Positions 18,243 through 39,993 of a DNA stretch of 64,000 nt are shown here, piece by piece (the first letter of the stretch is position 1; each line of letters starts with the position of its first letter). The position numbers and the translations under genes are program-made. The stretch is from contig CAJXYU010000005.1 of assembly GCA_913063155.1 (NCBI GenBank), forward strand, positions 1 to 64,000, in the 5' to 3' direction. The notes under the pieces are model-generated. The model was not told where the DNA came from, did not search any database, and saw only the letters and a list, made by a program, of their open reading frames with translations. The DNA is from an uncultured Desulfovibrio sp. (GTDB taxonomy: Bacteria > Desulfobacterota > Desulfovibrionia > Desulfovibrionales > Desulfovibrionaceae).

Positions 18243-18259
18243 GGTGTGTCTTGCCCGCC

Positions 18260-18940: not shown

Positions 18941-18954
18941 CCTTTGTTGCTATG

Positions 18955-19821: not shown

Positions 19822-19823
19822 GA

Positions 19824-20444
19824 TTACACCTCCTCGGGGTTGCTGATTTTTCCGGCCTGCGATCCTGCGGGCTTGGCGTTGCGGTTCGGCGTGATGATCA
19901 GGTTTGGCTGTGTGATGTTTGGAGAAGGTAGCGGAGCGACGAGGTTTTCCGAACCATACTTGTCGGCGAGCTCCTCATATTCTCCATAATGAAGCGCTCG
20001 GTTCGGGCAGGCCGCCACGCAGGCCGGGGATTTGCCTTCCCGCTGGTAGTCACGGCAGAAGTCGCATTTGGTCATTTTTCCCAGTCCTTCACTGTATTGG
20101 GGCGCGGAATACGGACAGCCCCATTCGCAGTAACGGCAGCCCACACATTTGTCGTGGTCGACGGACACGATGCCGTCCGGGCCTTTGTGCATGGCCGTGG
20201 TTGGGCAAGATCTGACACAAATTGGGTTCTCGCAATGGTTGCAGGAGATCGACAGATAGTAAGCAAAAACGTTTTGGTGGTATTTACCGTTGCCGTCTTT
20301 GTTCCAGTCGCCACCGGTGTATTCCGAGACCCGTCTCCACAAAATCCCTTTGGGCAGATCGTGTTTGTCGATACAGGCGATCATGCAGGTTTTGCAGCCC
20401 GTGCAGGCTTCCATATCTATATAAAACGCCGGTCTTTTCAGCAT
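19824..20444 (-). CDS. dmsB: DMSO-reductase-type iron-sulfur subunit, copy 1
   Basis: 206 residues, the usual DmsB length. Four 4Fe-4S ferredoxin motifs are evident: CTGCKTCMIAC (14-24), CNHCENPICVRSC near 69-81, CVGCRYCEWGC near 100-110, and CDFC with a later CVAAC near 128-147. It carries electrons from DmsC to the molybdenum subunit. It starts 12 nt after dmsA1 and is diverged from copy 2 over most of its length, except for the final nine residues that lie inside the repeat. Confidence 0.95.
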   Translation of the reverse strand: MLKRPAFYIDMEACTGCKTCMIACIDKHDLPKGILWRRVSEYTGGDWNKDGNGKYHQNVFAYYLSISCNHCENPICVRSCPTTAMHKGPDGIVSVDHDKCVGCRYCEWGCPYSAPQYSEGLGKMTKCDFCRDYQREGKSPACVAACPNRALHYGEYEELADKYGSENLVAPLPSPNITQPNLIITPNRNAKPAGSQAGKISNPEEV

Positions 20445-20456
20445 GCGGTTTCTCCT

Positions 20457-22895
20457 TTACGCCTTCTCGACCTGGACGAGGTTTGTGTGCTGAGGATTCC
20501 CCTTTGACAGAGGGGTTGGGCGTTGCGAGGTGAGTACGTTGACGCATCCCCCCTGGTCGATGCCATCCTTCCCTGGCGTGTACCACGCCCCCTGGGGTAG
20601 AGTGAGCACTCCGGGCATGATTCTCGGAGTGACCTTGGCGGGGACGATCACTGTTCCACGCTTGTTGAATACTTTGACCATGTCGCCGTGCTTGATGCCG
20701 CGTTTTTCGGCGTCCACTGGGTTGATCCACAGCTCTTGAGGTGCGACCTGTTTGAGCCAGTCCACGTTACCGTATGTGGAGTGCGTGCGTTGCTTGTAGT
20801 GGTGGCCGATGAGCTGCAGGGGAAATTCGGAACGCAGGGGGTCCGACACGCCTTCCCAGGTGGGAGTGTATTGCGGCAGAGCCGAAATGACGTCCCCTTC
20901 ACGCAGTTCCCAGGTGTGGGCAATATTCCACAATCGCTTGGAGAATATTTCGATCTTTCCGGACGGGGTGGGCAGCGGATTGGTTTTCGGGTCCTCTCGG
21001 AACGACTTGTACGGAACTGCGGGTTTGCCTTTTCTTTCGTATTTGAAAACGCCTTGTGTAAAGGCGTCGTCAAGGTTTTCAGGCAGGTCGGGGGTGTTGG
21101 CGCGTTGTTTTGCATACACCCAATGCGCCCAGTCGTTTCTGGTGCGGCCCTCGGTGAACGCATTTCTCACGCCCATCCGTTCGGCAACACCGGTGCAGAT
21201 GTCGTAAACAGTACGGCTTTCAAAGAAAGGCTCCACTGCCTTGGGCGCAAAGATCTGGTACGCCATGGTGGAGGTCCAGCCGCAAACTGCGAAATCGTCT
21301 TCTTCAAGATTGAAGGCGGCGGGCAGGAGTATGTCGGCATAGCGGGCGCTCGGGGTCATGAAGTTGTCTATGACCACGATGGTTTCGCATTTGGATTCGT
21401 CCTGCAGGATTTCGTGGGTGCGGTTTGAGTCGGAGTGTTGGTTGATGATGCAGTTGCCCGCGTAGTTCCAGATGAATTTGATGGGCGCGATGAGCCTATC
21501 CCTGCCTTGAACGCCGTCCCGGGTGGCCGTCATTTCCGGACCGCGTACGATGGCATCGGTCCAACCGAAGACGGAAATGGACGTTTTCACCGGGTTTTCC
21601 AAGGTCGGGAACCCGGCAAAGGGGATGCCGAAAGATCCTTCACGGGCGCCGGTGTTGCCGCCCTGGACGCCGACGTTGCCGGTCAGAATGGGAAGCATGC
21701 AGATGGCGCGGCAGTTCTGCTCACCGTTGGCCTGGCGCTGGATGCCCCAACCTTGGGTGATGAAACATGGTTTGGCCCGTCCGATTTCATGAGCAAGTTG
21801 AATGATGCGTTTTTCCGGGATGCCGGTGATTTCCGAAGCCCATTTCGGAGTTTTTGGCGTCTTGTCGTCGCCTTTGCCAAGGATGTAGGATTTGTAGGAA
21901 TTGCCTGCCGGAATCCCCTCCGGGAGCGAGTCCTCATCATATCCGACACAACACTTCTTCAGGAAATCGTCGTCGACTATTTTCTCGGTGATGAGGACAT
22001 GGGCGAGACCGCAAACCAGAGCCGCATCGGTACCGGGGTGAATGGGAATCCATTCGTCGGCGGCGACGGCCGCCGTGTCTGTGTAGCGGGGATCAATGAC
22101 TATTATCTTTGCGCCGCTTTTCTTTCGGGCTTGGACGATGTCATTGACCAACCCACCGCCGCTCATGCGGGTAGCCGCAGGGTTGTTTCCGAACATGACG
22201 AACAGTTCGGTGTTGGTGATGTCCGCATAAGTGTTGCCGTCAACCCAGCCGCTACCATAGGTGAACGGCAGCGCGTACTCTATTTGGGCGGCGCTGTAGT
22301 CACCGTAATGGTTGAGATAGCCGCCCAGGCAGTTCATGAGTCGGGCGATGGGGGTCGCGCCAGGAGGCCAGGATTTGGAAAGAGTGGCCCCAAGGTTTCC
22401 CGTTCCGTAGTTCAAGTAGACCGACTCGTTGCCATGCTCGTCTATGGCTTTCTTCAGTCGCTTGGCAACGAGGGCGTAGGCTTCGTCCCAGGAAATTCGT
22501 TCGAAGTTTCCTTCTCCGCGCTTACCTACTCGCTTCATGGGATATTTGAGCCTTTCAGGGGCGTACATGCGGCGGCGCATGGAGCGTCCTCGCAGGCAGG
22601 CCCGGACTTGGTGGCTGCCATATGTATCTTTGCCCAGATTATCCGTCTCAATACGGGTAACAACCCCATCCGACACATGTGCGCGAAGGGCGCAACGGCT
22701 GCCGCAGTTGACGTTGCAGGACGCCCAGACGATTTTTTCGTCTGAATTGGGCTGGCGGTTGGCTTTTTTAAGACCGTAAAAAAGCCCTCCCGCTGAAAGG
22801 GAAGCAACGCCTCCGAGGGCGGCTGTCCATTTCAGGACATTGCGTCTGCTGACGCCCTTTTTCTTTTTTGAGGGGGCTGAATTTTCCTTACTCAT
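20457..22895 (-). CDS. dmsA: DMSO-reductase-type molybdenum catalytic subunit, copy 1
   Basis: 812 residues from ATG 22895, with GGAG just upstream; a TTG four codons earlier is unlikely. Twin-arginine leader SRRNVLKW at 16-23, so export is folded via Tat. The FS0 cluster cysteines are Cys60, Cys64, Cys68 and Cys100. HYGDYSAAQ near 196-204 carries the candidate serine ligand to molybdenum. FGNNPAATRMSGGG, IDPRYTDTA and the C-terminal THSTYGNVDWL are typical of DmsA, and the whole protein closely follows E. coli DmsA in motif order. It reduces DMSO or a related S- or N-oxide at the periplasmic side. It is preceded by a sigma-54 promoter and an upstream element. Confidence 0.92.
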   Translation of the reverse strand: MSKENSAPSKKKKGVSRRNVLKWTAALGGVASLSAGGLFYGLKKANRQPNSDEKIVWASCNVNCGSRCALRAHVSDGVVTRIETDNLGKDTYGSHQVRACLRGRSMRRRMYAPERLKYPMKRVGKRGEGNFERISWDEAYALVAKRLKKAIDEHGNESVYLNYGTGNLGATLSKSWPPGATPIARLMNCLGGYLNHYGDYSAAQIEYALPFTYGSGWVDGNTYADITNTELFVMFGNNPAATRMSGGGLVNDIVQARKKSGAKIIVIDPRYTDTAAVAADEWIPIHPGTDAALVCGLAHVLITEKIVDDDFLKKCCVGYDEDSLPEGIPAGNSYKSYILGKGDDKTPKTPKWASEITGIPEKRIIQLAHEIGRAKPCFITQGWGIQRQANGEQNCRAICMLPILTGNVGVQGGNTGAREGSFGIPFAGFPTLENPVKTSISVFGWTDAIVRGPEMTATRDGVQGRDRLIAPIKFIWNYAGNCIINQHSDSNRTHEILQDESKCETIVVIDNFMTPSARYADILLPAAFNLEEDDFAVCGWTSTMAYQIFAPKAVEPFFESRTVYDICTGVAERMGVRNAFTEGRTRNDWAHWVYAKQRANTPDLPENLDDAFTQGVFKYERKGKPAVPYKSFREDPKTNPLPTPSGKIEIFSKRLWNIAHTWELREGDVISALPQYTPTWEGVSDPLRSEFPLQLIGHHYKQRTHSTYGNVDWLKQVAPQELWINPVDAEKRGIKHGDMVKVFNKRGTVIVPAKVTPRIMPGVLTLPQGAWYTPGKDGIDQGGCVNVLTSQRPTPLSKGNPQHTNLVQVEKA

Positions 22896-22938: not shown

Positions 22939-22953
22939 GCAGTAATTGTGCCA
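22939..22953 (-). promoter_or_regulatory. Sigma-54 promoter of dmsA1 operon
   Basis: On the minus strand TGGCACAATTACTGC matches the consensus TGGCAC-N5-TTGC with GG and GC in exact -24/-12 spacing. It is about 43 nt upstream of ATG 22895. Confidence 0.8.
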
Positions 22954-23052
22954 ATAGTATTTTTTTTCTGTGAAATAAATATGTTGCTATAGATAGGCAA
23001 GGGGGAGGAAGGGCGGATTGTCTTTGAGATGCAGAAATTGATGCAGCAAAAC

Positions 23053-23075
23053 TGGAATTTCCATTTTTTTTGGAA
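23053..23075. promoter_or_regulatory. Upstream activator element of dmsA1
   Basis: TGGAATTTCCA (23053-23063) overlaps TTCC-N9-GGAA (23059-23075) with an A/T spacer. Its centre is about 110 bp upstream of the sigma-54 promoter, a normal enhancer distance. The same composite occurs before dmsA2, and TTCC-N9-GGAA occurs twice before the 32993 gene. Confidence 0.65.
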
Positions 23076-23130
23076 TGTTTTGTTTTTCTCAAGCGGAGAG
23101 GCTCTGAGGTGTCTCCCCAGGCGGGAGGGG

Positions 23131-24065
23131 GCCCGGAGGCGAGCCTCCGGGCCTTTGTTGCTGTGTTAGATGCCGATACGCATGTAGGTTCCGTAGAACA
23201 TGAGCCTGCCGATGATTTCACCTGCCAGCACCAGGGCAAGGGCGCAGAGTGCGGGGCTGGCGATGAGTTTGATCTGCTTGGTTCCCATGGCTTTGAGTGC
23301 GAACCAGCTGAAGAGGCCGATGCCCGCACAGACCATGACGATCCAGGCCACAAGGCCGTCGACGCCCTTGTCGGCGACCATATGCAGGGCGTTCATGCCG
23401 TAATTGTCGGTGTTGTTCAGGGCGATCATGCTCAGGACGATGCCGATGAACTTGAGGGCGAGGCCGACCAGGGCAGAAACGCAGAACACTCCGGCCATGG
23501 AAGAACAGGACTCGGCATTCTTGGCGGAGCGGTTTTCCAGGCTGCCGATCAGGCCGCAGGCAACCGATCCGGAAAGCAGCATGGTGCCGAAGAATCCGAA
23601 GGTGGTGGCAATGGAATTCCAGACCGGGACCGTGGGAAGCAGGTAGACCCTGGTCATGATGAATACTGCTCCGAGTCCGACCACGATGGAAGCGATCGCC
23701 AATGGGGTAGCTCCTTTTTCAGGAGCCTTACGCCTTTGTAACACCAGCAGCAGGATAACCGCAAAGAAGCATCCCACCACGAGGATTTCACGGCTGAGCC
23801 AGGACGAACCCAGGTTCAGGATGGTGAAAACGCTGTGCAGCGGAGTACCCAGGTGTGTCAGGGAGAAGAGCAGGCCCAATGCGGTCAGCGCGCAGGCTGC
23901 GGGGGCCTGCCATTTCAGGTGCGCCCCACTGTTTTTCAACAGAAGCCGGGTGAACTCGGAAATGACGACAATCCCCACAGCGGCTTGTGTGAGGACGGTG
24001 AAGAGTACGAGACTCCATTCACTGGAAAACATGATTACACCTCCTCGGGGTTGCTGATTTTTCCG
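23131..24065. repeat. 935-bp near-identical repeat, copy B (contains dmsC2)
   Basis: Direct repeat of 18920-19854, same orientation, offset 4211, with one difference noted. Homologous recombination between the copies would delete or duplicate dmsA1-dmsB1 with one dmsC. Confidence 0.93.
23166..24032 (-). CDS. dmsC: DMSO-reductase-type membrane anchor, copy 2
   Basis: 288 residues, identical in amino-acid sequence to the product of 18955-19821. The start was set at ATG 24032 by that match and by its position 2 nt after dmsB2; the frame stays open upstream to 24359 but there it only overlaps dmsB2. It is a polytopic quinol-oxidising anchor for the DmsA2-DmsB2 pair. Identity of the anchors suggests that both reductases meet the quinone pool through the same protein. 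Confidence 0.92.
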   Translation of the reverse strand: MFSSEWSLVLFTVLTQAAVGIVVISEFTRLLLKNSGAHLKWQAPAACALTALGLLFSLTHLGTPLHSVFTILNLGSSWLSREILVVGCFFAVILLLVLQRRKAPEKGATPLAIASIVVGLGAVFIMTRVYLLPTVPVWNSIATTFGFFGTMLLSGSVACGLIGSLENRSAKNAESCSSMAGVFCVSALVGLALKFIGIVLSMIALNNTDNYGMNALHMVADKGVDGLVAWIVMVCAGIGLFSWFALKAMGTKQIKLIASPALCALALVLAGEIIGRLMFYGTYMRIGI

Positions 24066-24655
24066 TTCTTCGAGCCCGCTGGCTGCGCATTGCGTCCCGG
24101 TTTTACCAGCAGGTTGGGTTGCGTTATGGATGGATCCGGCATTGGGGCGATGATTTGTGCTTCGCCGAACTTGGCCACGAGTTCGGCATACTCCCCATAG
24201 TGAAGCGCCCTGGTGGGACAAGCCGTCACGCAGGCCGGAGCCTTTCCCTGTTCCAGGTCGTCTCTGCAGAAGTCGCATTTGGTCATTTTTCCCAACTTTT
24301 CGTTGAACTGGGGAGCGGAATAGGGACAACCCCATTCGCAATAGCGGCAGCCCACACATTTGTCGTGATCGACGCTGACGATTCCGTTGGCGTCTTTATG
24401 CATGGCCGTGGTGGGGCAGGAGCGTACGCAAATGGGGTTTTGGCAATGATTGCATGAAATGGAGAGATAATACGAGAACACGTTTTGTTCGTAAGTTCCC
24501 GCCTCCAGTCTGGTCCAAGCGCCTCCCGTGTATTCGGAGACCCGTCTGTAGAGCACTCCGTCGGGGAGGTCATGCTTGTCGATACAAGCTATCATGCATG
24601 TCTTGCAACCGGTGCAGGCTGTGGTGTCTATATAAAAAGCCGGTCTTTTAAGCAT
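24035..24655 (-). CDS. dmsB: DMSO-reductase-type iron-sulfur subunit, copy 2
   Basis: 206 residues with the same four cysteine motifs as copy 1 (CTGCKTCMIAC, CNHCQNPICVRSC, CVGCRYCEWGC, CDFC...CVTAC). It differs at many positions between motifs, for example the segment after SEYTGG and the C-terminal third, before converging again on GKISNPEEV. It starts 15 nt after dmsA2 and passes electrons to it. Confidence 0.95.
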   Translation of the reverse strand: MLKRPAFYIDTTACTGCKTCMIACIDKHDLPDGVLYRRVSEYTGGAWTRLEAGTYEQNVFSYYLSISCNHCQNPICVRSCPTTAMHKDANGIVSVDHDKCVGCRYCEWGCPYSAPQFNEKLGKMTKCDFCRDDLEQGKAPACVTACPTRALHYGEYAELVAKFGEAQIIAPMPDPSITQPNLLVKPGRNAQPAGSKNGKISNPEEV

Positions 24656-24670
24656 TCTTGCAAGGCTCCT

Positions 24671-27091
24671 TTACAGTTTGGCGACTTCGACCAGGTTGGT
24701 ATGCTGCGGATTGCCCTTTGCCAGGGGCGAGGGATGATGCGAGGTGAGGGTGTTGATGCATCCGCCCTTGTCGATTCCGTCTGTGTCGGGTTTGAACCAG
24801 GCCCCCTGCGGCAGGGTCATGACACCCGGCATGATGCGCGGCGTGACTTTGGCCTTGGCTTGGGTCTGTCCCCTGTCGTTGAAGACCTTGACACTGTCGC
24901 CGTGTTTGATGCCGCGTTTTTCGGCATCCACGGGGTTGATCCAGAGCTCCTGGGGCGCGACTTTCTGCAGCCAGTCCACGTTGCCGTAGCTGGAGTGGGT
25001 GCGTTGCTTGTAGTGGTGCCCGATGAGTTGCAGCGGATACTTCTGTTTGCCTTTCTCGTCCTCGGCTCCTTCCCATGTGGAGTGGTATTCAGGGAGCGCG
25101 GTGATGACGTCGCCTTTGGGAAGCTTCCAGGCCTTGCTGATGTCCCAAAGTCTCTTGGAGAATATCTCGATTTTTCCGGAAGGAGTTTTGAGGGGATTGG
25201 CCTCCGGGTTTTTACGAAAGTCTTCGAATGCGACCTTCGGCTTGTTCGGGCGGCCCCATTTGATCAGTCCTATTTTCTGAGCATCCTTGAAAGTGGGAGG
25301 CAGGTCGGATTTGATTTCGCGACATCTCTGGTACATGTATTCGACCCATTGGCTCCGGTCCATGCCCAGAGTGAACTTTTTTTCGACTCCCATGCGTTTG
25401 GAGAGGTCGATGAGGATGTCGAAGAAGGAGCGGCTTTCGAAGAACGGTTTGATGGCCTGAGTCGAAGCGACCATGTATGCCATTTCCACTGCATATCCCT
25501 GTTGGATGATGTCCTCTTCCTCCAGGGCCGTACAGCAGGGCAGCAGAATATCGGCGAATTTGGCGCTCGAAGTCATATAGTTGTCGAGTACGACGATCAT
25601 TTCGCACTTGGATTCGTCCTGAAGGATCTCGGCCGTTCTGCCGCAGTCCGAGTGTTGGTTGATGATCGCGTTGCCGGCATAACTCCAGAGGAATTTGATG
25701 GGTTTTTCGAGCCTTTTTTTTCCTCTTACGCCGTCCGTTAAGTCGGTCATGCTGGTGGGATCGTCAATGGCCTTTGTCCAGGTGAACACGGGAATGGACG
25801 TCTTGACCGGGTTTGTTCCCATGGGAATGCGCGGGAACGGAATGCCGTAAGAGCCTTCCCTGTCGCCGGTGTTGCCGCCGCTTATACCTACGTTGCCGGT
25901 GAGTATGGAAAGCATGCAGATGGCCCGGGCGGTCTGTTCCCCACAGGCCTGACGCTGGGGCCCCCATCCTTGGAAGATGGCGCACGGCTTCGCTGTGCCG
26001 ATTTCACGGGCAAGTTTTTTGATGGTGTCAGCCGGGATACCGGTGATTTTTTCGGCCCACTTCGGCGTTTTTGCCGTCTTGTCCCGTCCTGTGCCGAGGA
26101 TGTAATCCTTGTAGGAATTGCCGGTGGGAATGTCCGAAGGCATGGTGGAATCATCATACCCCACGCAGAACTTGGACAGGAAATCCTCGTCGGCCATTCC
26201 TTCGGAAATGATCACATGGGCCAGACCCGCCACGAGTGCGGCGTCCGTGCCGGGGCGGATGGGAATCCATTCATCGGCAAAGGTTGCGGCGGTATCCGTG
26301 TAGCGAGGGTCGACCACGATGACCTTCACGCCGCTTTTTTTCTTGGCGTGGACCAGGTCGTAAATGGTGCCGCCGCCGCTCATGCGGGTAGCCGCCGGGT
26401 TGTTGCCGAAAAAGATGACCAGTTTGCTGTTGACGATGTCGGAAATGTGGTTTCCGTTTTTCTTGCCGTAGGTGTATGGAAGAGCCGTGCTGATTTGTGC
26501 GGTGGAATAGCTGTTGTAGTAATTGAGGGTGCCGCCGAGCTGGTTCATCAACCTCCAGAAGCCTTCCCTTCGTGAAACCGTGCCCCCTAGTACGCCGGTT
26601 GCGTAGTGGCTGTACACGGACTCGTTGCCGTAGGTGTCTATGATGCGTCTCAACCCGGATGCGATGGTGTCGAGGGCTTCGTCCCACGATATCCGCTCGA
26701 ATTTTCCCTCACCGCGCTTGCCGACGCGTTTCATGGGATATTTCAGCCGTTCCGGAGAGTATATCCAACGTCGGGTCGACCTGCCGCGCAGGCAGGCCCG
26801 GACCTCATGCTTTTTGAAGTCTTCGTCGCCGGTGTTGTCCGTTTCGATTCGCACCACGTGCCCGTCGCGGACATGGACTTGAATGGGGCAGCGACTGCCG
26901 CAGTTGACGTTGCAGGTTGCCCAGACGACTTTTTCGTCGGAATTGGGCTGACAGTTGGCTTTTTTAAGACCGTAGAAAAGCCCTCCTCCTGAAATGGAAG
27001 CTACGCCACCGAGGGCGGCCGTCCATTTCAGGACATTGCGTCTGCTGACGCTCCCCTTCTTTTCAGAGGGGGCTGATTTCTTGTTGCTCAT
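24671..27091 (-). CDS. dmsA: DMSO-reductase-type molybdenum catalytic subunit, copy 2
   Basis: 806 residues. Tat motif SRRNVLKW at 16-23, FS0 cysteines Cys60/64/68 plus the one in VRACLRGR, the candidate molybdenum-serine region YYNSYSTAQ, and FGNNPAATRMSGGG. The first about 65 residues are nearly the same as copy 1, but the substrate-side regions differ (for example GGTLNYYNSYS versus GGYLNHYGDYS), so the substrate range may differ. An ATG start with the promoter region upstream supports 27091. It is the first gene of the second dmsABC operon and lies directly after the response-regulator gene. Confidence 0.92.
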   Translation of the reverse strand: MSNKKSAPSEKKGSVSRRNVLKWTAALGGVASISGGGLFYGLKKANCQPNSDEKVVWATCNVNCGSRCPIQVHVRDGHVVRIETDNTGDEDFKKHEVRACLRGRSTRRWIYSPERLKYPMKRVGKRGEGKFERISWDEALDTIASGLRRIIDTYGNESVYSHYATGVLGGTVSRREGFWRLMNQLGGTLNYYNSYSTAQISTALPYTYGKKNGNHISDIVNSKLVIFFGNNPAATRMSGGGTIYDLVHAKKKSGVKVIVVDPRYTDTAATFADEWIPIRPGTDAALVAGLAHVIISEGMADEDFLSKFCVGYDDSTMPSDIPTGNSYKDYILGTGRDKTAKTPKWAEKITGIPADTIKKLAREIGTAKPCAIFQGWGPQRQACGEQTARAICMLSILTGNVGISGGNTGDREGSYGIPFPRIPMGTNPVKTSIPVFTWTKAIDDPTSMTDLTDGVRGKKRLEKPIKFLWSYAGNAIINQHSDCGRTAEILQDESKCEMIVVLDNYMTSSAKFADILLPCCTALEEEDIIQQGYAVEMAYMVASTQAIKPFFESRSFFDILIDLSKRMGVEKKFTLGMDRSQWVEYMYQRCREIKSDLPPTFKDAQKIGLIKWGRPNKPKVAFEDFRKNPEANPLKTPSGKIEIFSKRLWDISKAWKLPKGDVITALPEYHSTWEGAEDEKGKQKYPLQLIGHHYKQRTHSSYGNVDWLQKVAPQELWINPVDAEKRGIKHGDSVKVFNDRGQTQAKAKVTPRIMPGVMTLPQGAWFKPDTDGIDKGGCINTLTSHHPSPLAKGNPQHTNLVEVAKL

Positions 27092-27144
27092 ACATTCTCT
27101 CTACTTCGTTACAGTAACAAAATACGAAACTGCCGGACGCTTTA

Positions 27145-27159
27145 ACAATAAATGTGCCA
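27145..27159 (-). promoter_or_regulatory. Sigma-54 promoter of dmsA2 operon
   Basis: On the minus strand TGGCACATTTATTGT fits TGGCAC-N5-TTGC except for T in place of the last C. It is about 53 nt before ATG 27091. Confidence 0.7.
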
Positions 27160-27254
27160 GAAGAATTGTTGTTAAAAATAAATAGGTTGAAGTCGCAAGA
27201 GGAGTGGGGGGACGGCCGGATCCCCTCTGGACGGAAAAAGTCGGATCAGTAAAA

Positions 27255-27278
27255 TTGGAATTTCCAATAAAAACGGAA
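27255..27278. promoter_or_regulatory. Upstream activator element of dmsA2
   Basis: The palindrome TTGGAATTTCCAA (27255-27267) overlaps TTCC-N9-GGAA (27262-27278), the same composite as upstream of dmsA1. It lies about 110 bp from the -24 element and just past the stop codon of the response-regulator gene. Confidence 0.65.
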
Positions 27279-27283
27279 GGATT

Positions 27284-28708
27284 CTATTCTTCTTCGAGGC
27301 GGTATTTTCGGAGTTGAGAATAGAGGCGACTCTTGCCGAGCCCTGAGAGTGCCGAAGCGCGTTTCATGTCCCCGTCGCTGGCCTCGAAAAGACGGGTGAA
27401 GTAGCGCTTTTCGGCTTTGGCGAGCACTTCCTGTCTGAATGTTTTGTAAGGGAGTACATCTCCGTCAGCCTCAATGCTGTCTTCGATTTCGGCCGAGGAC
27501 AGGTTTTCCTCGTGGCAGTTGTTTTGGGCTATGGCGTATTTGAGTACATGGATGCGCAGTTGTTCCGGCAAACTGTGAGCGTATATTTCCTGCATGTCGT
27601 AAGAAGCCGCGACCGAACTTTCCAGCACGTTCCCCAGTTCTCTAATATTTCCGGGCCAGTCGTAGGCTCTGAAGGCGTCCAGGACACCGTTATTCAATTT
27701 TTTCCTGGGAATGCCGTACCCGTCGCAGGTACGGCCGAGAATGTTTTCGGCCAGTTCATGGATGTCTGCACGGCGGTTGCGCAAGGGAGGGAGCTCAATA
27801 CACATGGCTCCGAGGCGGTATAACAGGTCCCGCCGAAAGGTTCCCTGTTCAACCATTTTCGCCAGATTTCTGTGGGTGGCCGCCACCACTCGGAAATCGC
27901 TCTCCTCCTCATGATTGGCGCCGACAGGGCGAAAACGGCGTTCCTGGAGGACTCTGAGCAGCCGTTTCTGCAGATCGAGGGACATTTCTCCGATTTCGTC
28001 CAGAAAAAGGGTTCCCTTGTCGGCTTTCAAAACCAACCCTTCGCTTGGGCGGTCTGCTCCGGTGAACGCGCCCTTGACATGGCCGAACAGGGTGCTTTCG
28101 AGCAGGGTGGGGGGGATCGAGGCGCAATCCACCACAATGAAGGGGCCGGAAGACCGGCGGCTGTTGTGGTGAAGGGCTTTGGCAAAGAGTTCCTTGCCTG
28201 TGCCCGTCTCACCTGTGATGAGCACACCCGCGTCGCTGCGGGCGGCCGAGGCCATCCTTTCAAGCGCGTCAGTGATCGCCGGGCTGGTTCCGACAATGCC
28301 GCAGCGATCCAAGCTTTTAGGCAGCTTGGCATGTTTACGCAGGGTGTCCCGGTACTTGAGAACCCGTTGCAGGGGCAGCAGTATTTTCTTGGGCGACAGG
28401 GGTTTTTGCAAATAGTCCCAAGCTCCGTTCCGGATGGCCAGTTCCGCGCCGTCCGGGTCCCCAAGGCCGGTCAGGATAATTACCTCCGGTGGAAGGGGAC
28501 GCTGGCGCAGGGTCGGGAGCACGCTCAGGCCGTTGGCATCCGGCAGCCGGACATCCAGGAAGACTACGTCGAACTCCGAGTCTTCCGCCTTGTGCATGCC
28601 TTCGGCCGCAGTAAGTGCGAAATCGGCTTTGTGGCCGATATTGCGGACCAGCTCCATGAGTGCGTCGCAGGTCGGCTGATCGTCATCTATGATCAATACA
28701 TTCGCCAT
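27284..28708 (-). CDS. Sigma-54-dependent NtrC-family response regulator
   Basis: 474 residues in three domains. Receiver 1-120 with phospho-acceptor Asp52 in FLDVRLPD and Lys102 in YLQKPLS. AAA+ domain about 135-370 with Walker A GETGTGKE (166-173), the sigma-54 contact loop GAFTGA (213-218), Walker B TLFLDEIG (233-240) and the NIREL arginine-finger region. A C-terminal Fis-type helix-turn-helix runs to the end (ASALSGLGKSRLYSQLRKY). It is phosphorylated by the hybrid kinase encoded 15 nt upstream and should activate the sigma-54 promoters of the two dms operons. The recognition site is probably TTCC-N9-GGAA. Confidence 0.93.
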   Translation of the reverse strand: MANVLIIDDDQPTCDALMELVRNIGHKADFALTAAEGMHKAEDSEFDVVFLDVRLPDANGLSVLPTLRQRPLPPEVIILTGLGDPDGAELAIRNGAWDYLQKPLSPKKILLPLQRVLKYRDTLRKHAKLPKSLDRCGIVGTSPAITDALERMASAARSDAGVLITGETGTGKELFAKALHHNSRRSSGPFIVVDCASIPPTLLESTLFGHVKGAFTGADRPSEGLVLKADKGTLFLDEIGEMSLDLQKRLLRVLQERRFRPVGANHEEESDFRVVAATHRNLAKMVEQGTFRRDLLYRLGAMCIELPPLRNRRADIHELAENILGRTCDGYGIPRKKLNNGVLDAFRAYDWPGNIRELGNVLESSVAASYDMQEIYAHSLPEQLRIHVLKYAIAQNNCHEENLSSAEIEDSIEADGDVLPYKTFRQEVLAKAEKRYFTRLFEASDGDMKRASALSGLGKSRLYSQLRKYRLEEE

Positions 28709-28723
28709 GTTGATGTTCCGCCT

Positions 28724-31297
28724 TTATGCCTCGTTGTTGGAAAACAGGCCTTCGCCGGGACGCAGGAAGCGGCTGACGCACATGGCCAGACTGCGAAGCT
28801 CCACGGGTTTGTGTAGAAATGCTTCGATACCCAAGCCTTTGGCATCGTTTTCGCCAAAACTCTGGCTGTAGCCCGTGCACAGGATGATCGGGATATCCGG
28901 CCGGATTTCCAGAATGTGCTTTGCCAGCTTGTCGCCGCGCAGTCCCGGCATACTGTAGTCTGTTATGATCAGGTCGAACTCTTCGGGCGTATTCCGGAAT
29001 AGTTCCAGGGCCTGCTTGCCGTCGGTGATGGTATGCACTTTGTAACCGAGAGTGGTCAGGAGCTCTCCGTAGGACTCAGCTAATTCTCTTTCGTCATCGA
29101 CAAAGAGAATAGTGCCGGTGCCGTCTGGGAGCTGGTGCAACGGGGTGGCCTTGGGCTGCTCTAAGGCCTTTTCCTGCATCGCCGGAATGTGGATTCGGAA
29201 GGTGGAACCTTTTCCCAAAGGACTTTCCACCTGGACGAATCCGTCCCATGCCTTGACGATACCCTGCACCACGGACAAACCCAGCCCCGTTCCCTGCCCC
29301 ATGGTTTTGGTGGTGAAGAAAGGGTCGAAAATTCGTTCCAGAAGCTCTTCGGGAATGCCCTTCCCGGTATCGCTCACCGTGAGACACAAATAATTTTTCG
29401 TTTTCCGCTCTTCCGTAGGCTTTATGTCGAGGCGGTTTTCGGTCAGCCGCAAATCTATGGACAGCGTGCCGCCGTTTTGTCCCATGGCGTGCGCGGCGTT
29501 GGTGCACAGGTTCATAAGTACCTGATGGACCTGTGTCGGATCGGCCAGCACCGGTGGCTCGGGTTGCCCAATTGCATATTGGATGTCAATGGAGGCGGGC
29601 AGCGAGGCTTTGAGGAATTTGGCGGTTTCCTTGATGATCGGGCTGATATTCATCAACCGGGTTTCTTCTTTGCCCTTGTTGGTGAAACTGAGAATCTGAC
29701 TGACCAAGTCCCGCCCCCGGTAGGCGGCGGCCAGTATGGCCCGGGTTTTGGATTCCAGGTTCTGATCACCACCGAGGTGGAACAATTCAATCATTTCACC
29801 GTTGGCGACGATGACGCCGAGCAGGTTGTTGAAGTCGTGCGCTATGCCGCCGGCAAGGGTGCCGAGGGCCTCCATTCGCTGCACCCGTTGCAACTGCCGG
29901 TCTTTTTCGTGAAGGGAGATTTCCGTGCGCTTGCGCTGCAAGGCTTCCTCAAAGACAAATAGAACTTCCGCAAGTTGTGAGGTTTCCCCTTCAGTATACT
30001 CCCTGCGCGGACGCATGACGCAAATGACCTTCAACCCCGTGTCCGCCTCCTGGTGGAGGGGGACGGCTATGAGGCGTTTGTCGCCATTTTCGATGTGCGT
30101 GCGTACGTGACGGCCTCCCTTCAGGTCTTCCAGTTGATCCCGGCTCAAGCGGATGGCCGTCCTGTTGGAGGCTGCGGATTGTTCGGCGGATTCGTCTTCC
30201 AAGACCGCCAGCAGTCGTATCAATGTCCTGTCTTCCGACACCTGAGCCAGGGAAGCCTGTTCGCTGCCGGACATGGCTCTGGCTTCGGCCAGGCAGCGGA
30301 GCATGACTTCCTGTTCGGTGCGGCAGTCAAGCGATCCCAGCAGCACCTTGTTGATGGAGCTGAGCGTATGGGTTCGTTGTTGCACCTGTCGTTTGAGGCT
30401 GCGGTTCCAGAGCAGGATCAAAATGATGCTTCCGATGATGGCTCCGAACACGACGAAGACGCCGATCCAAAAGGTTCGACTGACCCAGAAAGGACGGTAT
30501 TGCAGGGAGAGCCAGTCCTCTTCGACGATTTGGCGTTCATGGGGCAGAATCATGCTCAACCCCTTGCGCAGGATGTTGCCGAGCATGGGATTGTTGTTGC
30601 GCGAGGCGATGCGCAGGTCGATGGAGTAGTTGGTGATCCCGGCAATGCGCAGATTGCTGATGCGGGCGTTGGCTATATAGCGTGACGCCAAGGCCATATC
30701 GCAGATGAGGGCGTCCACGTCGCCCACTGCCAGGCAGCGCAGGCCGCCGATGTAGCCCCCCGCCATGGGAACGATGGTGTATCCGCCGTCCGGGTAGCGT
30801 TCGTGCAGGTATTTGAGGAAGTGGTCGGAAACAGTCACCCCGATGCGCATGCCGGACAGCTTGTCCAGCGTCAGGTCTTCGGTGAATTCTTTGCGGCAAA
30901 TGATGGCCGCAGGAACACTGATGTAGGGCTGGGTGAAGTCCAGAGCTTCCCTGAGTTCGGGAGTCATCTCCAGAGCTGCCATCACGTTCACCTGGCCGTT
31001 CAGCAGCGCCTTCAGGGTCTCCTGGCGGTTGCGGAAACGGACCGGTTCGAATTTGAGCCCCGTCTTCTCGCTGATAAGGCGGATGAAATCGGCGCTCAGG
31101 CCTTGATATTTGCCTCCCAGGCTGAATGTCTCGTAGGGAGGATAGTGCAGTCCGACTCCCACCTTCACCGGTTCGGGGTGCTTCTTGATCCACTGTTGTT
31201 CTTCGGGGGTGAGCGGATTCGTCCCCTCCATGACATTGCATGCCGACAAACAGAAGAGGGCCAGCAGGGTTGGGAAGGTGAAAGTCAGAAAACGCAT
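28724..31297 (-). CDS. Hybrid sensor kinase with periplasmic solute-binding domain
   Basis: 857 residues from ATG 31297 (GGAG upstream). The N-terminus ends in LSAC with Cys20, so it is either a lipoprotein-type or an uncleaved leader. A family-3 solute-binding sensor covers about 43-262, a transmembrane helix 276-297, and a GAF-like region about 320-455. The kinase core has phospho-His487 in GGIAHDFNNLLG and ATP-site motifs DTGKGIPEE and GTGLGLSVV. A receiver follows with Asp780 (LIITDYSMPG). It senses a periplasmic ligand, plausibly an S- or N-oxide, and relays to the response regulator encoded next. It follows the FmdE fusion gene by 19 nt. Confidence 0.9.
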   Translation of the reverse strand: MRFLTFTFPTLLALFCLSACNVMEGTNPLTPEEQQWIKKHPEPVKVGVGLHYPPYETFSLGGKYQGLSADFIRLISEKTGLKFEPVRFRNRQETLKALLNGQVNVMAALEMTPELREALDFTQPYISVPAAIICRKEFTEDLTLDKLSGMRIGVTVSDHFLKYLHERYPDGGYTIVPMAGGYIGGLRCLAVGDVDALICDMALASRYIANARISNLRIAGITNYSIDLRIASRNNNPMLGNILRKGLSMILPHERQIVEEDWLSLQYRPFWVSRTFWIGVFVVFGAIIGSIILILLWNRSLKRQVQQRTHTLSSINKVLLGSLDCRTEQEVMLRCLAEARAMSGSEQASLAQVSEDRTLIRLLAVLEDESAEQSAASNRTAIRLSRDQLEDLKGGRHVRTHIENGDKRLIAVPLHQEADTGLKVICVMRPRREYTEGETSQLAEVLFVFEEALQRKRTEISLHEKDRQLQRVQRMEALGTLAGGIAHDFNNLLGVIVANGEMIELFHLGGDQNLESKTRAILAAAYRGRDLVSQILSFTNKGKEETRLMNISPIIKETAKFLKASLPASIDIQYAIGQPEPPVLADPTQVHQVLMNLCTNAAHAMGQNGGTLSIDLRLTENRLDIKPTEERKTKNYLCLTVSDTGKGIPEELLERIFDPFFTTKTMGQGTGLGLSVVQGIVKAWDGFVQVESPLGKGSTFRIHIPAMQEKALEQPKATPLHQLPDGTGTILFVDDERELAESYGELLTTLGYKVHTITDGKQALELFRNTPEEFDLIITDYSMPGLRGDKLAKHILEIRPDIPIILCTGYSQSFGENDAKGLGIEAFLHKPVELRSLAMCVSRFLRPGEGLFSNNEA

Positions 31298-31316
31298 GAG
31301 GTGTTCTCCAGGCCTT

Positions 31317-32993
31317 TTATTTCCCGAACGGGCATTTGGGGAACGTACAATTGGCGCATCCCATGCACATGCCGCCCTCACCCATGCGGGCGAGATCGTC
31401 TCTGGTTACGTCTACGTCCGCCAGCAGGCGGGGCAGAAGCAGGTCCAGGCTTGTGGTCTCGAAGAACAGGGCGCAGGCGGGTACTCCCAGAAGGCGGGCG
31501 CCGCCGATCTTGCCCACGAGTGTCATGGTGCCGGGGAGCAGAGGAGTTCCGTAGAGGAGATCGCGAGCTCCAGCATCCAGCAACCCGTGGCGGGTGACGT
31601 CATCAGGGTCGACGGAAAGGCCGGCTGTCGTGATGATGACCTCACACCCTTCGTCGAGCAGGGTTCGGACGCCGTCCCCAATGCGTTTCCGGTCGTCCGG
31701 TACTAGAATAGCCTGATGTACGGAGCTGCCGAGGGCTGTGACCTTTTTACGGATGACTGCTTCGAAACGGTCCTCGATTTTGCCCGAGTACACCTCGTCG
31801 CCGGTGATGAGAACGCCTACCTTGGTCTTGCGCAAGGGCAGGACCGAGAAAAGCGGGTGATCGGCCTCGGTCAGGGTATCCATGGCCCGGGAATATTGGT
31901 CGCGCTGCAGGTATAGGGGGATTGCCCGGGTGCCTGCCACTTCCGTTCCCTTCTTGACCATGGTCCAGCCTACGCGGCTGGCGGCCATGACCCCGGGACA
32001 GAGGTTGAAGAGGTGCAGGGCGTCCGTGTTGACCCGGAACAGACCGTCGGTTTCGGCCCGAAGTGTGACCTTGCCTTCACGGGGTGGCCCTGCGGGGGTG
32101 ACGCCGGGCCCAGCCATCATCGAGGAGAAGTCTTGGGCGCAGTCGTCTTCATGCACCCATTCCTCGCTGACAGAGCCTTGTTCGACATATAGATTGTTGC
32201 GTCCCATGTGTTGCAGGCGGCACAGGTCGCCCGCTTCGAACACTTGCCCCTTGCGGAATACGGCCTCCTTGCTGATGCCTGGTTCTATGCGGGTCATGTC
32301 ATGGGCAAAGCGGTTTCCCACCGCATCCTTGACGGCGATAGTGGAAATGGACTTCGGCAGAGGATAAATGACTTGTGAGGCTTCGCGCATGGTTTCCGAA
32401 GCATACGGGGATTCACCTTTGCATGAACGACAGACCGGGCCGTGGGCGATTGGATATGCTTCGTGGCAGACCGGGCATTCTCCGATACTTCCCTTGCTCC
32501 GCTTGTAGAGCAGATCGGCGCGCAGGGAGATGGGGCGGACCGAGCAGATATCTGCTCCGGCCTCGCCGATTTCCCTGAGAAGCCTGTCCGAATCCTGTTC
32601 ATGCTTGGGCTTGAGTTTCAGATACCAGGTTCGGATTTCTGAGTCTTTGGGGATCTTGTGCAGATCCAGCCAGACGCGCACTCCTTTGCCGGTATGTTTG
32701 TCGAAGAGGCTGAGCGCATAGAGTCCGAAATTCATGACTCTGATCCAACCGTTGCCGATAGTGCAGGGCGTCAGCATCTGTATGGCGTCGGGAAGACACC
32801 ATGATGTTTCTGAAATGGCTTCAAAAAGCGTTCCTTCGGGAATATGGCGTCTCGCTTCCTCGACCATGTATCCGCCAAGGATGAGTCCTGGGGCGGGATA
32901 GTTGTGGAAAAGTGTAGCCATTTCGATGAATTCATCGAAAGTGTGTTGGCCAATGTTTTTGAAATCGGTCACAGGTGCGGAAGTTGTAGGCAT
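31317..32993 (-). CDS. FmdE-type / molybdopterin-binding domain fusion protein
   Basis: 558 residues. Residues about 15-195 are an FmdE-type domain with Cys66 (SWCLPDAIQ), Cys77 and a treble-clef-like Cys173/176/188/191 set. Residues about 390-530 are a MoCF_biosynth-type domain (VGVLITGDEVYSG, IITTAGLSVDPDDVT, GTPLLPGTM). The end carries Cys543/546/549/554 (CMGCANCTFPKC). It heads the operon with the sensor kinase and regulator and has its own upstream elements. A role in molybdenum-cofactor handling or insertion for the DmsA proteins is inferred from domains and context; no tungsten/molybdenum selectivity can be read. Confidence 0.8.
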   Translation of the reverse strand: MPTTSAPVTDFKNIGQHTFDEFIEMATLFHNYPAPGLILGGYMVEEARRHIPEGTLFEAISETSWCLPDAIQMLTPCTIGNGWIRVMNFGLYALSLFDKHTGKGVRVWLDLHKIPKDSEIRTWYLKLKPKHEQDSDRLLREIGEAGADICSVRPISLRADLLYKRSKGSIGECPVCHEAYPIAHGPVCRSCKGESPYASETMREASQVIYPLPKSISTIAVKDAVGNRFAHDMTRIEPGISKEAVFRKGQVFEAGDLCRLQHMGRNNLYVEQGSVSEEWVHEDDCAQDFSSMMAGPGVTPAGPPREGKVTLRAETDGLFRVNTDALHLFNLCPGVMAASRVGWTMVKKGTEVAGTRAIPLYLQRDQYSRAMDTLTEADHPLFSVLPLRKTKVGVLITGDEVYSGKIEDRFEAVIRKKVTALGSSVHQAILVPDDRKRIGDGVRTLLDEGCEVIITTAGLSVDPDDVTRHGLLDAGARDLLYGTPLLPGTMTLVGKIGGARLLGVPACALFFETTSLDLLLPRLLADVDVTRDDLARMGEGGMCMGCANCTFPKCPFGK

Positions 32994-33037
32994 GAAAATG
33001 TTCCTTTATGTCGGGAAAAATGAATTCTGGCAAAGTT

Positions 33038-33052
33038 TCAATATCCATACCA
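33038..33052 (-). promoter_or_regulatory. Weak sigma-54-like promoter of the FmdE-fusion operon
   Basis: Minus-strand TGGTATGGATATTGA keeps GG and TTG in -24/-12 spacing but lacks the consensus C residues. It is about 45 nt before ATG 32993. Listed because enhancer-like elements lie upstream; support is weak. Confidence 0.35.
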
Positions 33053-33125
33053 GTTCACTTTTCCTCCAATAGCGTTTGCTTTTGTGGCTGATACTGCGTG
33101 TCGAAGATGTTTGCAAAACATTTTT

Positions 33126-33182
33126 TTCCATTTTTTATGGAAAGAAAGAAGTTGCTCCCGAGTTTTTCCATTTTTTTCGGAA
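33126..33182. promoter_or_regulatory. Paired upstream activator elements of the FmdE-fusion operon
   Basis: Two TTCC-N9-GGAA elements, at 33126-33142 and 33166-33182, have A/T-only or nearly A/T spacers. Their centres are 40 bp apart, close to four helical turns, and about 80 and 120 bp from the candidate promoter. The rest of the 525-bp gap up to the aguB end holds only the palindrome at 33321 and no supported gene. Confidence 0.6.
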
Positions 33183-33518: not shown

Positions 33519-34403
33519 CTAGCCGACAACTCGGCTCGTTCCGTCCAAGGTCATGACCGGGGCGTAACAGTGAGGTCTGCGGTCCCGGAAAAAACCCCAT
33601 CCGGCTCGGAAGTTGCGAATTTCGTCGAAGTCGACTTCTGCCGTGAGCACGCCTTGGGTGGTACGGTTGGCGTCGGCCACGAGAGCTCCCATGGGATCGG
33701 TGATGAATGAGGAGCCGTAGAAGGTCAGTTCCACGTCTCGGTCCGTTTCGGTCCCGATCCGGTTGGAGGCGCAGACCGGCATAATATTGGCCGCGGCATG
33801 TCCCTGCTGGGTTCGCCGCCAATGAGGCATGGAGTCGCAATTCGGCATGGTCGGCTCGCTGCCGATGGCCGTGGGGTACATGAGTACGTCCGCCCCCATG
33901 AGTGCCATGGCTCGGGCGGCTTCGGGGTACCACTGATCCCAGCAGATTCCCACTCCCACATTGCCGTAGGACGTCTCCCATATCTTGAACCCGGTGTCTC
34001 CGGGATTGAAATAATACTTCTCTTCGTACCCTGGGCCTTGGGGAATATGGGTTTTGCGGTAGACGCCGAGCATGGTTCCGTCCGCATCCATCATTGCCAT
34101 GGAGTTGTAGTGGGCTTTGCCTGCCCGTTCAAAAAAGGAAACGGGCAACACCACACCGAGTTCCCGGGCCAGGGCTGAAAATCTGGCCAACAGCGGGTCG
34201 TTCAATGTGGCTTCATGGGCGTAAGAAAAGTAGGTGTGGTCTTGTTTTTTGCAGAAGTAAGGTCCTTCGAACAATTCCTGAAGCAGTATGATCTGCGCTC
34301 CTAGGGATGCAGCCTCACGGACTAGGGATTCCGCCGTGTCGATGTTTTTGGCAAAGTCGTCGGAGCAGGCCATTTGGGTGACGGCCAGGGAGGTCTTGGT
34401 CAT
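33519..34403 (-). CDS. aguB: N-carbamoylputrescine amidase
   Basis: 294 residues of the nitrilase/carbon-nitrogen hydrolase superfamily. The catalytic triad is visible: Glu in LLQELFEGPYF near residue 43, Lys in YRKTHIPQGPGY near 116, and Cys in VGICWDQWYPE near 154. The FCKKQD and YFNPGDTGF segments match AguB closely. It hydrolyses N-carbamoylputrescine to putrescine, carbon dioxide and ammonia. AGGAG precedes ATG 34403, 9 nt after the agmatine deiminase gene. It is the last gene of the polyamine operon. Confidence 0.93.
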   Translation of the reverse strand: MTKTSLAVTQMACSDDFAKNIDTAESLVREAASLGAQIILLQELFEGPYFCKKQDHTYFSYAHEATLNDPLLARFSALARELGVVLPVSFFERAGKAHYNSMAMMDADGTMLGVYRKTHIPQGPGYEEKYYFNPGDTGFKIWETSYGNVGVGICWDQWYPEAARAMALMGADVLMYPTAIGSEPTMPNCDSMPHWRRTQQGHAAANIMPVCASNRIGTETDRDVELTFYGSSFITDPMGALVADANRTTQGVLTAEVDFDEIRNFRAGWGFFRDRRPHCYAPVMTLDGTSRVVG

Positions 34404-34412
34404 GTCTTTCTC

Positions 34413-35483
34413 CTAGAACACGGGCAGGGGCGTGCCTTTGGGTTGCTGCTGGGTGATGCAGTGGATGCCGCCGCCTCCGGCGAAGATGTCAAGGCTTGGT
34501 ATCTGGATGACTTTGCGGTCCGGAAAAGCCGCACACATACGTTCATAGGCCACCTCGTCCACGGGGTCGTCAAAGGAGGACATGACGATGCCGCCGTTGC
34601 AGATGTAGAAATTGATGTAGCTGAGGTCCATGCGCCAGTCTCCGACATGACGGGGAGCGGGCTCGGGCATGCGGATGATTTCGAAGGAACGTCCCTTGGC
34701 ATCCTTTGCCTCCTCCAAGCGTTTTATGGCGTCTTGACTGACCTTGAAGTTGTGGTTTTCCGGGTCGGTGCAATCGTGGACCATGACCACACCTGGACGG
34801 ACGAAGCAGGCGAGGATGTCCACGTGCCCGTGGGTTTCATCGTCCTCTAGTCCGTTGCCGAGCCATATGATTTTCTTGGTGCCGAGGTAGGCCGCAAGGA
34901 GTTTCTCATAATCCCGGGCCGAAAATCCGGCGTTGCGGCGCGGGTCGAACTGCACCTGCTCGGTGGTCAGGATTGTGCCCTCGCCGTCTGCATGAATACC
35001 GCCGCCCTCGATGATGAATGGTGCTGCATACCGGCGCATTTCTAGATATTCGAGAACGTTGAGAGCCATGGCTTCGTCATATTTCCCTTCGTAGCGGGCG
35101 ATGTGCCCCCAATCGTTGAAGACCCAGTCCACTCCGGCCACTCTTCCCTTGCCGTCCACGAGAAAGGTGGGGGCGGAGTCGCGTGCCCAGGAGTCCCGGG
35201 TGTCCATGGGAATGATGTTGACTGCATCGTCGCACATGGCCCGCGCTTCGTCGACGAGCTCGGGACGGGCCATCATGTGGACCTGCTCGAATCTGCTGAT
35301 GGCTTTGGCGACCTCGGCATAGGCCATTTTCGGTTTCTCCATGCCGAAGGGCCAAGCCGAGGGCTTGCACGGCCAGGTCATCCATGTCGCTTCGTGTTCT
35401 TCCCACTCGGCGGGCATGTAAAGTCCGTCGCAGGAGGGGGCGCGGACCGGGATTCGAACCAATGGAACGGGATTGTTTGCCAT
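34413..35483 (-). CDS. aguA: Agmatine deiminase
   Basis: 356 residues from ATG 35483, which has AGGAAGAG upstream; an in-frame ATG 27 nt earlier is less likely. Peptidyl-arginine-deiminase-fold protein: MPAEWEEHEATWMTWP at the N-terminus, DTRDSWARDSAPTF, IEGGGIHADGEGT, ETHGHVD and the nucleophilic Cys near residue 342 in GGGGIHCITQQQP. It converts agmatine to N-carbamoylputrescine, the substrate of the adjacent amidase. Confidence 0.94.
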   Translation of the reverse strand: MANNPVPLVRIPVRAPSCDGLYMPAEWEEHEATWMTWPCKPSAWPFGMEKPKMAYAEVAKAISRFEQVHMMARPELVDEARAMCDDAVNIIPMDTRDSWARDSAPTFLVDGKGRVAGVDWVFNDWGHIARYEGKYDEAMALNVLEYLEMRRYAAPFIIEGGGIHADGEGTILTTEQVQFDPRRNAGFSARDYEKLLAAYLGTKKIIWLGNGLEDDETHGHVDILACFVRPGVVMVHDCTDPENHNFKVSQDAIKRLEEAKDAKGRSFEIIRMPEPAPRHVGDWRMDLSYINFYICNGGIVMSSFDDPVDEVAYERMCAAFPDRKVIQIPSLDIFAGGGGIHCITQQQPKGTPLPVF

Positions 35484-35534
35484 GTGTTTTCTCTTCCTGC
35501 TTATGGGCATGGAATTGCTTTTGATTTTATGTTG

Positions 35535-36968: not shown

Positions 36969-36979
36969 TGAGAACCTCC

Positions 36980-39945: not shown

Positions 39946-39993
39946 GGTTTCATTGTGACCGGGGCATGAAGCCCCGGCCTGTTTTTCGTTGTT

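Follow-up and report, generated by a model that had tools for sequence, protein, structure and literature searches.

This analysis concerns a 64,000-nucleotide stretch of DNA from an uncultured Desulfovibrio sp. (positions 1-64,000 of the forward strand of contig CAJXYU010000005.1, assembly GCA_913063155.1; hereafter the window), in which the dyad TTCC-N9-GGAA recurs upstream of a sensor kinase/regulator pair and of two dmsABC operons. Judging from sequence, it is very probable that the response regulator encoded at 27284-28708 binds this dyad in the refined form TTCCR-N7-YGGAA (R, purine; Y, pyrimidine; N, any base) and drives, from sigma-54 promoters, both its own operon and reductases of S- and N-oxides (S/N-oxide reductases). 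The observations behind this reading are the element itself, promoter-like sequences, their geometry and conservation, the co-occurrence of the element with the kinase/regulator pair, and a matching change in a sister system.

The original prediction had placed TTCC-N9-GGAA at four positions, all of which are exact, although the window holds six matches rather than four (2.06 expected; six were reached in 2 of 100 shuffles), the further two lying within the kinase gene (29171-29187) and over the ribosome-binding region of the FmdE gene (33001-33017). It had also put each of the four copies before a separate transcription unit. The copies do lie upstream of transcription units, but of three and not four, as those at 33126 and 33166 both precede the gene for an FmdE-fusion protein. 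The composite described for both dmsA promoters, at about 110 base pairs (bp), is real, with distances of 112 bp (dmsA2) and 115 bp (dmsA1), and the form extended by ATTCCA after the dyad, present in both, recurs in the relatives L093, L094 and L095. The -24/-12 promoters were assigned by consensus and conservation, and the following sites are predicted:

33166 to 33182, minus strand: TTCCGAAAAAAATGGAA, predicted distal operator for the operon of FmdE fusion, kinase and regulator, centred 123 bp upstream of the -24 GG.
33126 to 33142, minus strand: TTCCATAAAAAATGGAA, predicted proximal operator for that operon, centred 83 bp upstream of the -24 GG and 40 bp from the distal operator.
33038 to 33052, minus strand: predicted sigma-54 type promoter of the FmdE-fusion operon, TGGTATGGATATTGA, of a TGGTAY-N5-TTG form that recurs in relatives.
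27262 to 27278, minus strand: TTCCGTTTTTATTGGAA, predicted operator of dmsA2, centred 112 bp upstream of the -24 GG and extended by the additional ATTCCA half-site.
27220 to 27236, minus strand: predicted degenerate proximal operator of dmsA2, TTCCGTCCAGAGGGGAT, with one mismatch, 42 bp from the strong copy and absent from the original prediction.
27145 to 27159, minus strand: predicted sigma-54 type promoter of dmsA2, TGGCACATTTATTGT (consensus and conservation).
23059 to 23075, minus strand: TTCCAAAAAAAATGGAA, predicted operator of dmsA1, centred 115 bp upstream of the -24 GG and extended by the additional ATTCCA half-site.
22939 to 22953, minus strand: predicted sigma-54 type promoter of dmsA1, TGGCACAATTACTGC (consensus).

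Relatives of the kinase at 57-82% identity were found in 17 of the 348 genomes of the order, including the window genome, with two more at 37%. Comparison of 18.7-19.9 kilobases (kb) around the kinase in the 18 other genomes, 16 of them close, revealed that the order kinase, regulator, dmsA, dmsB is kept in all 16 close relatives; dmsC was not detected in L107 and L108. The FmdE-fusion gene stands directly before the kinase in 8 of the 16, and for the remaining eight the kinase start was taken as the operon start. At single loci, the kinase match of L097 (G208) is split in two frames after about 95 codons, by a frameshift or a sequencing error, while in L107 (G065) the FmdE-fusion match comes in two overlapping pieces and the regulator match runs at its end into the dmsA match, which leaves no room for an own promoter between these genes.

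Spacings of 0-20 between the half-sites were scanned in the 450 bp before the operon (17 regions) and the 260 bp before dmsA (18 regions). The N9 spacing accounts for 24 copies in 14 of the 17 operon regions, the window copy over the ribosome-binding region included, and for 15 copies in 14 of the 18 dmsA regions. The runners-up are N13 (1 operon and 4 dmsA copies) and N0 (1 and 2), followed by single copies of N3, N5, N12, N18 and N20 in the operon set and one of N20 in the dmsA set. In longer regions (480 and 300 bp), 40 N9 copies were found without selecting for flanks, and 39 of them carry R before and Y after the middle seven bases, the single exception being the window copy over the ribosome-binding region; base-shuffled regions gave, for both sets together, a mean of 0.16 copies and a maximum of 2 in 500 rounds. 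The element is clearly conserved upstream of orthologous operons, as the original prediction implied.

The geometry recurs as well. The centres of exact sites lie 78-83 and 120-125 bp above the -24 GG at operon promoters, and 70-71, 102 or 112-116 bp above it at dmsA promoters. Site pairs 40-44 bp apart occur in 14 of the 17 operon regions (both members exact in 10, one of them a single mismatch off in 4) and in 10 of the 18 dmsA regions (each with one exact and one one-mismatch site); in L098 a distance of 32 bp separates two exact dmsA sites, and three torC promoters carry exact and one-mismatch sites in 19-22 bp steps. The 40-44 and 19-22 bp steps are near whole helix turns. A strict helical phasing relative to the promoter (resultant length 0.62 at 10.5 bp, 45 distances) was considered and dropped because of an offset of about 9 bp between operon and dmsA promoters and because the rows are related; the claim is limited to the spacing within pairs.

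The element was also sought before homologous genes lacking the linked pair. TTCC-N9-GGAA lies upstream of none of 17 unlinked dmsA homologues at 51-61% identity, namely the 28 DmsA places minus 11 (the window's two and nine kinase-linked ones); among these controls, L136 and L137 are second copies in kinase-bearing genomes and L131 has only 177 bp upstream. For FmdE-fusion genes without the pair (30 loci minus the window's L026 and L030, L031, L032 and L051 from kinase-bearing genomes), the pattern is upstream of 1 of 25, and this one (L055) lacks the R..Y flanks; another of the 25, L033, is from G079, whose sister kinase adjoins a different FmdE-fusion gene. The second of the three FmdE-fusion copies in the window genome (C1:229049) has no match to the window kinase or regulator at E<=1e-10 within the surrounding 19.9 kb. 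In G060:C4 (14079-18155) and G028:C18 (23082-27158), an FmdE-fusion gene is directly followed by dmsA without the kinase, so that the link between FmdE and DmsA is independent of this regulator.

Composites of the R..Y element and TGGYAY-N5-TTG at the observed distances were then searched for in 36 genomes of the genus, 12 of them kinase-bearing. The proximal composite is present in 10 of 12 kinase-bearing genomes vs 0 of 24 others (reversed control 0), and the distal one in 12 of 12 vs 2 of 24 (reversed control 1), with Fisher values of 2.6e-7 and 7.3e-8 that are descriptive, as the genomes are related. Three of 23 distal places (G206, G156 and G185:C6) and 1 of 18 proximal places (within dmsA of G213) have no known target downstream and are taken for chance or for sites of another regulator. 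The proposal that the regulator drives both reductases and its own operon thus gains support from comparative genomics (14/17 operon and 14/18 dmsA regions; controls 0/17 and 1/25).

A variant of the system provides what is, at the level of sequence, the best evidence that the neighbouring regulator is the one likely to bind. In the sister trios L109 (G347) and L110 (G079), an FmdE-kinase-regulator operon is followed by torC-chaperone-torA, and the regulators are 54% identical to that of the window; the 348 genomes of the order yielded no sister-clade member besides these two. TTCC-N9-GGAA has 40 copies in 35 first-clade regions and 0 in 4 sister regions, whereas GTCC-N9-GGAC has 5 copies in the 4 sister promoter regions and 0 in the 35 first-clade regions; ATCC and CTCC versions of the dyad are absent from both sets. 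Three of the five GTCC-N9-GGAC copies precede the sister FmdE-fusion genes and two precede the operon after the regulator, both in G347, the corresponding operon of G079 having one-mismatch copies only; the R..Y flanks are missing in 2 of the 5. In parallel, the recognition stretch reads KSR[LV]YxQ in all 16 first-clade regulators aligned (of 17; L103 was left out) and RSRLYSL in both sister regulators, with R/L in place of K/Q. The joint change comprises one base pair per half-site and two residues, and the K/Q and R/L residues may be those that select the base of the dyad. The sister TorC proteins score 396 and 400 bits, below the cut-off, the TorD of G347 is above its own (156.4 vs 132), and TorA is above the PRK15102 cut-off for trimethylamine N-oxide (TMAO) reductase in both genomes (1037.9 and 1027.9 vs 909).

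Further candidate targets point in the same functional direction. A torC gene (E<=1e-80) is present in 6 of the 36 genus genomes, all kinase-bearing and each with an exact site, and none is found in the window genome at this threshold. In G203, G204, G198, G185 and G217 the element before torC is accompanied by a -24/-12 promoter at an observed distance, and the exact site of G164 is located 95 bp upstream of a promoter-like sequence. In G203 and G217, the TorC-like cytochromes reach 377 and 371 bits, under the TorC cut-off of 478, and the genes that come after torC in G203 and G185 encode TorD-like chaperones (79 and 85 bits; cut-off 132) and reductases that pass the S/N-oxide reductase cut-off of 1017.55 (1020.8 and 1024.1) and are just below that for TorA; the G164 reductase, at 1008.9, is just under the S/N-oxide reductase cut-off. 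In addition, G217 has a second dmsA-like gene elsewhere in the genome with a site 71 bp above its promoter, and G164 another FmdE-fusion gene with a site 116 bp above a weaker promoter-like sequence.

Whether the FmdE-fusion/kinase/activator trio is a control module for molybdenum S/N-oxide reductases in Desulfovibrionaceae is, in our judgement, evenly balanced. Such a module would exist in two versions, TTCC-N9-GGAA with Lys/Gln (dmsABC and some torC) and GTCC-N9-GGAC with Arg/Leu (torCDA). If true, it would represent a case in nature of a sigma-54 activator switching its specificity by one base and, within the open-access literature searched, the first sigma-54 control of dimethyl sulfoxide (DMSO)/TMAO respiration.

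The genes concerned are transcribed from the minus strand in the order FmdE-fusion, hybrid kinase, response regulator, dmsA2-B2-C2, dmsA1-B1-C1, DmsD/TorD-type chaperone and ferredoxin-type protein:

31317 to 32993, minus strand: FmdE, zinc finger and molybdopterin-binding (MoCF_biosynth) fusion protein, 558 amino acids (domain scan).
28724 to 31297, minus strand: hybrid sensor histidine kinase, 857 amino acids, with a periplasmic SBP_bac_3 (Venus-flytrap) domain, HATPase and C-terminal receiver (domain scan).
27284 to 28708, minus strand: sigma-54 activating response regulator, 474 amino acids, with GAFTGA loop and recognition stretch KSRLYSQ (domain scan, translation, alignment).
24671 to 27091, minus strand: dmsA2, catalytic subunit of a DMSO/selenate family reductase (TIGR02166, 1234.8 bits, cut-off 777.7).
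24035 to 24655, minus strand: dmsB2, iron-sulfur subunit (TIGR02951, 236.4 bits, cut-off 214.1).
23166 to 24032, minus strand: dmsC2, membrane anchor (DNA identical to dmsC1, scanned as dmsC1).
20457 to 22892, minus strand: dmsA1, above the DMSO/selenate family cut-off; product 65% identical to DmsA2.
19824 to 20444, minus strand: dmsB1; product 77% identical to DmsB2.
18955 to 19821, minus strand: dmsC1, membrane anchor (family model above cut-off).
18260 to 18907, minus strand: DmsD/TorD-type chaperone (exceeds the cut-off of Pfam Nitrate_red_del but not those of the NCBIfam models DmsD and TorD).
17193 to 18314, minus strand: ferredoxin-type iron-sulfur protein; most of the 16 close genomes have a relative encoded after the reductase genes.

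The reductases are of the DmsABC type, as A, B and C are adjacent and match the models (scanned for both A, B2 and C1), and both DmsA copies score below the cut-offs of the narrower E. coli DmsA and YnfE/F models; DMSO is their presumed substrate. The two dmsC copies with their short flanks (18953-19854 and 23164-24065) are identical across 902 bases, while ungapped identity in the 200 bases either side is only 45% and 65%, which may reflect either a gene conversion in the recent past or an artefact of assembly. The strand that carries the FmdE operon also has, upstream of it, a group of polyamine genes (33519-41034): a cut-off is exceeded for N-carbamoylputrescine amidase, aminobutyraldehyde dehydrogenase and putrescine aminotransferase, and agmatine deiminase and a PotD-like binding protein are best matches yet below theirs.

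The regulator has the makings of a sigma-54 activator. It carries an N-terminal receiver (PF00072, 74 bits, cut-off 30.2) whose D52 is unchanged across 18 aligned proteins, and an AAA+ sigma-54 interaction domain (PF00158, 224.5 bits); the GAFTGA loop claimed for it is found in the translation, and GLGKSRLYSQ is a conserved stretch of its C-terminal part in the alignment. It belongs to none of the named NCBIfam regulators (NtrC, AtoC, ZraR and others) at their thresholds, the best 25 of 97 matched models all lying below cut-off with NtrC at the top (357.4 vs 558.6), and a plasmid search returned relatives that are all below 60% identity. As for the kinase, the closest solved relatives of its SBP_bac_3 domain by sequence include the sensor domains of BvgS and EvgS, and a TorS-type identity is not supported by TIGR02956 (128.4 bits, far under the cut-off of 676.5).

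In regulators of the NtrC type, phosphorylation of the receiver leads to assembly of the AAA+ ring, which opens the sigma-54 polymerase. Binding, activation, phosphotransfer, signal, substrate and order of response are what we infer for the window system. A periplasmic signal, possibly an S- or N-oxide or something accompanying one, would be sensed by the Venus-flytrap domain of the hybrid kinase, which would in turn phosphorylate the regulator. Regulator dimers would then bind two dyads, usually about four helical turns apart and 70-125 bp upstream of a -24/-12 promoter, and the AAA+ ring, once assembled, would open the sigma-54 polymerase. The predicted targets are the own operon (FmdE/MoCF fusion, kinase, regulator) and both dmsABC operons, together, in some relatives, with an operon that encodes a TorC-like cytochrome along with a TorA-like reductase. 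Perfect dyads number two at the own operon and one at each dmsA gene, with a weak dyad in addition at dmsA2, so that the own operon may respond at lower regulator levels and be the more sensitive target. The FmdE/molybdopterin-binding protein, whose gene leads the operon, may help to supply the cofactor of the reductases, with which it would be co-regulated.

Several observations weigh against this reading. The bare TTCC-N9-GGAA occurs at 185 places genome-wide vs 181 for the reversed control, which is chance level; it was rejected as a genome-wide marker, as it carries no signal by itself and has meaning only with position, R..Y flanks and promoter. The rarity on which the original prediction depended is thus not found for the bare element, but it holds for the coding-strand form common to the four sites, TTCCR-W7-TGGAA (W, A or T), whose only four exact places in 4.3 Mb are these sites; since this form was derived from the sites themselves, it shows uniqueness and not independent significance. 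One mismatch admits six other places (reversed control, one match per strand), rejected as extra targets as none has a -24/-12-like site within 200 bp. Across the genus, the looser R..Y pattern was rejected as a marker because it fails to separate kinase-bearing from kinase-less genomes, and two kinase-less genomes match the distal composite. The exact site is lacking in operon regions L096, L099 and L100 and in dmsA regions L097, L100, L107 and L108, with one-mismatch copies near the expected distance in L097 (dmsA) and L100 (both) and none in the other misses, and the best candidate for a proximal copy at dmsA1 has three mismatches. The C-terminus of the regulator has no Pfam helix-turn-helix match at E<=0.001, so that its DNA-binding part is assigned from the alignment. 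Lastly, the counts are not independent, as the genomes are related, and the sister contrast rests on two genomes.

The alternative that fares best leaves the circuit as described and changes its purpose: the substrate of the DmsA-type enzymes might be methionine sulfoxide, selenate or another oxide, or the kinase might sense molybdenum or cofactor supply instead of DMSO/TMAO. We regard this as possible, though the less probable course. The NCBIfam family is named for DMSO/selenate with the narrower models below cut-off, an FmdE/molybdopterin-binding fusion leads the operon, and the sensor domain belongs to the general SBP_bac_3 type, its closest solved relatives including BvgS and EvgS. On the other hand, this regulator family stands in front of torC operons as well, and the torC-torA operons behind the sister regulators encode a TorA that passes the curated TMAO-reductase cut-off, which favours S/N-oxide respiration. 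It is unlikely, in turn, that the element is bound by a different sigma-54 activator or another transcription factor of these genomes while the neighbouring regulator acts elsewhere. Binding by the regulator is predicted from sequence, and D. vulgaris alone has 37 such activators (PMC4641369), so that other candidates probably exist here; yet the composite sites track the kinase/regulator pair across 36 genomes, unlinked dmsA homologues lack the element (0/17), and in the sister system an altered recognition helix goes with a dyad altered at one base and an unchanged N9 spacer. That the element is inherited promoter DNA or an A/T-rich coincidence with no binding role is highly improbable, for although the bare pattern occurs at chance level and orthologous promoters are related by descent, the N9 spacing stands out, the middle seven bases vary while TTCCR and YGGAA stay, promoter distances are kept and the same element precedes different promoters (fmdE operon, dmsA and torC).

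Control of S/N-oxide reductases by the neighbouring regulator, the reading that we prefer, can be set beside known systems. In TorS/TorR, a hybrid kinase with periplasmic input controls TMAO/DMSO reductase genes, as is proposed for the window, but TorR is an OmpR-type regulator whereas the window regulator is a sigma-54 activator, and the window kinase is far below the TorS model (128.4 vs 676.5 bits). E. coli dmsABC is regulated by FNR and NarL, while the window genes have predicted sigma-54 sites instead; DmsA, DmsB and DmsC of the window resemble E. coli DmsABC and YnfEFGH in exceeding the family-model cut-offs and differ in not reaching the narrower DmsA and YnfE/F models. Among the matches listed from open-access full texts, there was no sigma-54 regulator of DMSO or TMAO reductase, no text match to the written motif and no report contrary to the original statement that no regulator with this site has been described, figure logos and supplements being outside the text search. 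In the sigma-54 regulome of D. vulgaris Hildenborough, Table 1 has 37 regulators, none with S/N-oxide reduction named, and TTCC, GGAA, DMSO and molybd are absent from the main text, the motif logos being in figures outside the text search (PMC4641369). As far as that paper describes them, the regulators of this regulome and of the NtrC type share with the window regulator the receiver, the AAA+ domain with GAFTGA and a C-terminal DNA-binding part, which for the window regulator is putative, and the regulome also shares with the predicted window system small regulons of few operons near the regulator gene and sites upstream of -24/-12 promoters, the largest promoter fraction lying within 100 nucleotides of the site (PMC4641369). 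The kind of circuit is thus well known, and the site is unreported as far as the open-access literature was searched. The window system would add S/N-oxide reductases to the processes run by sigma-54 and give a concrete assignment of regulator, site and targets for these enzymes in sulfate reducers, organisms in which sulfate has to compete with alternative electron acceptors, and its two-version contrast would offer a ready test of which activator residues choose one base.

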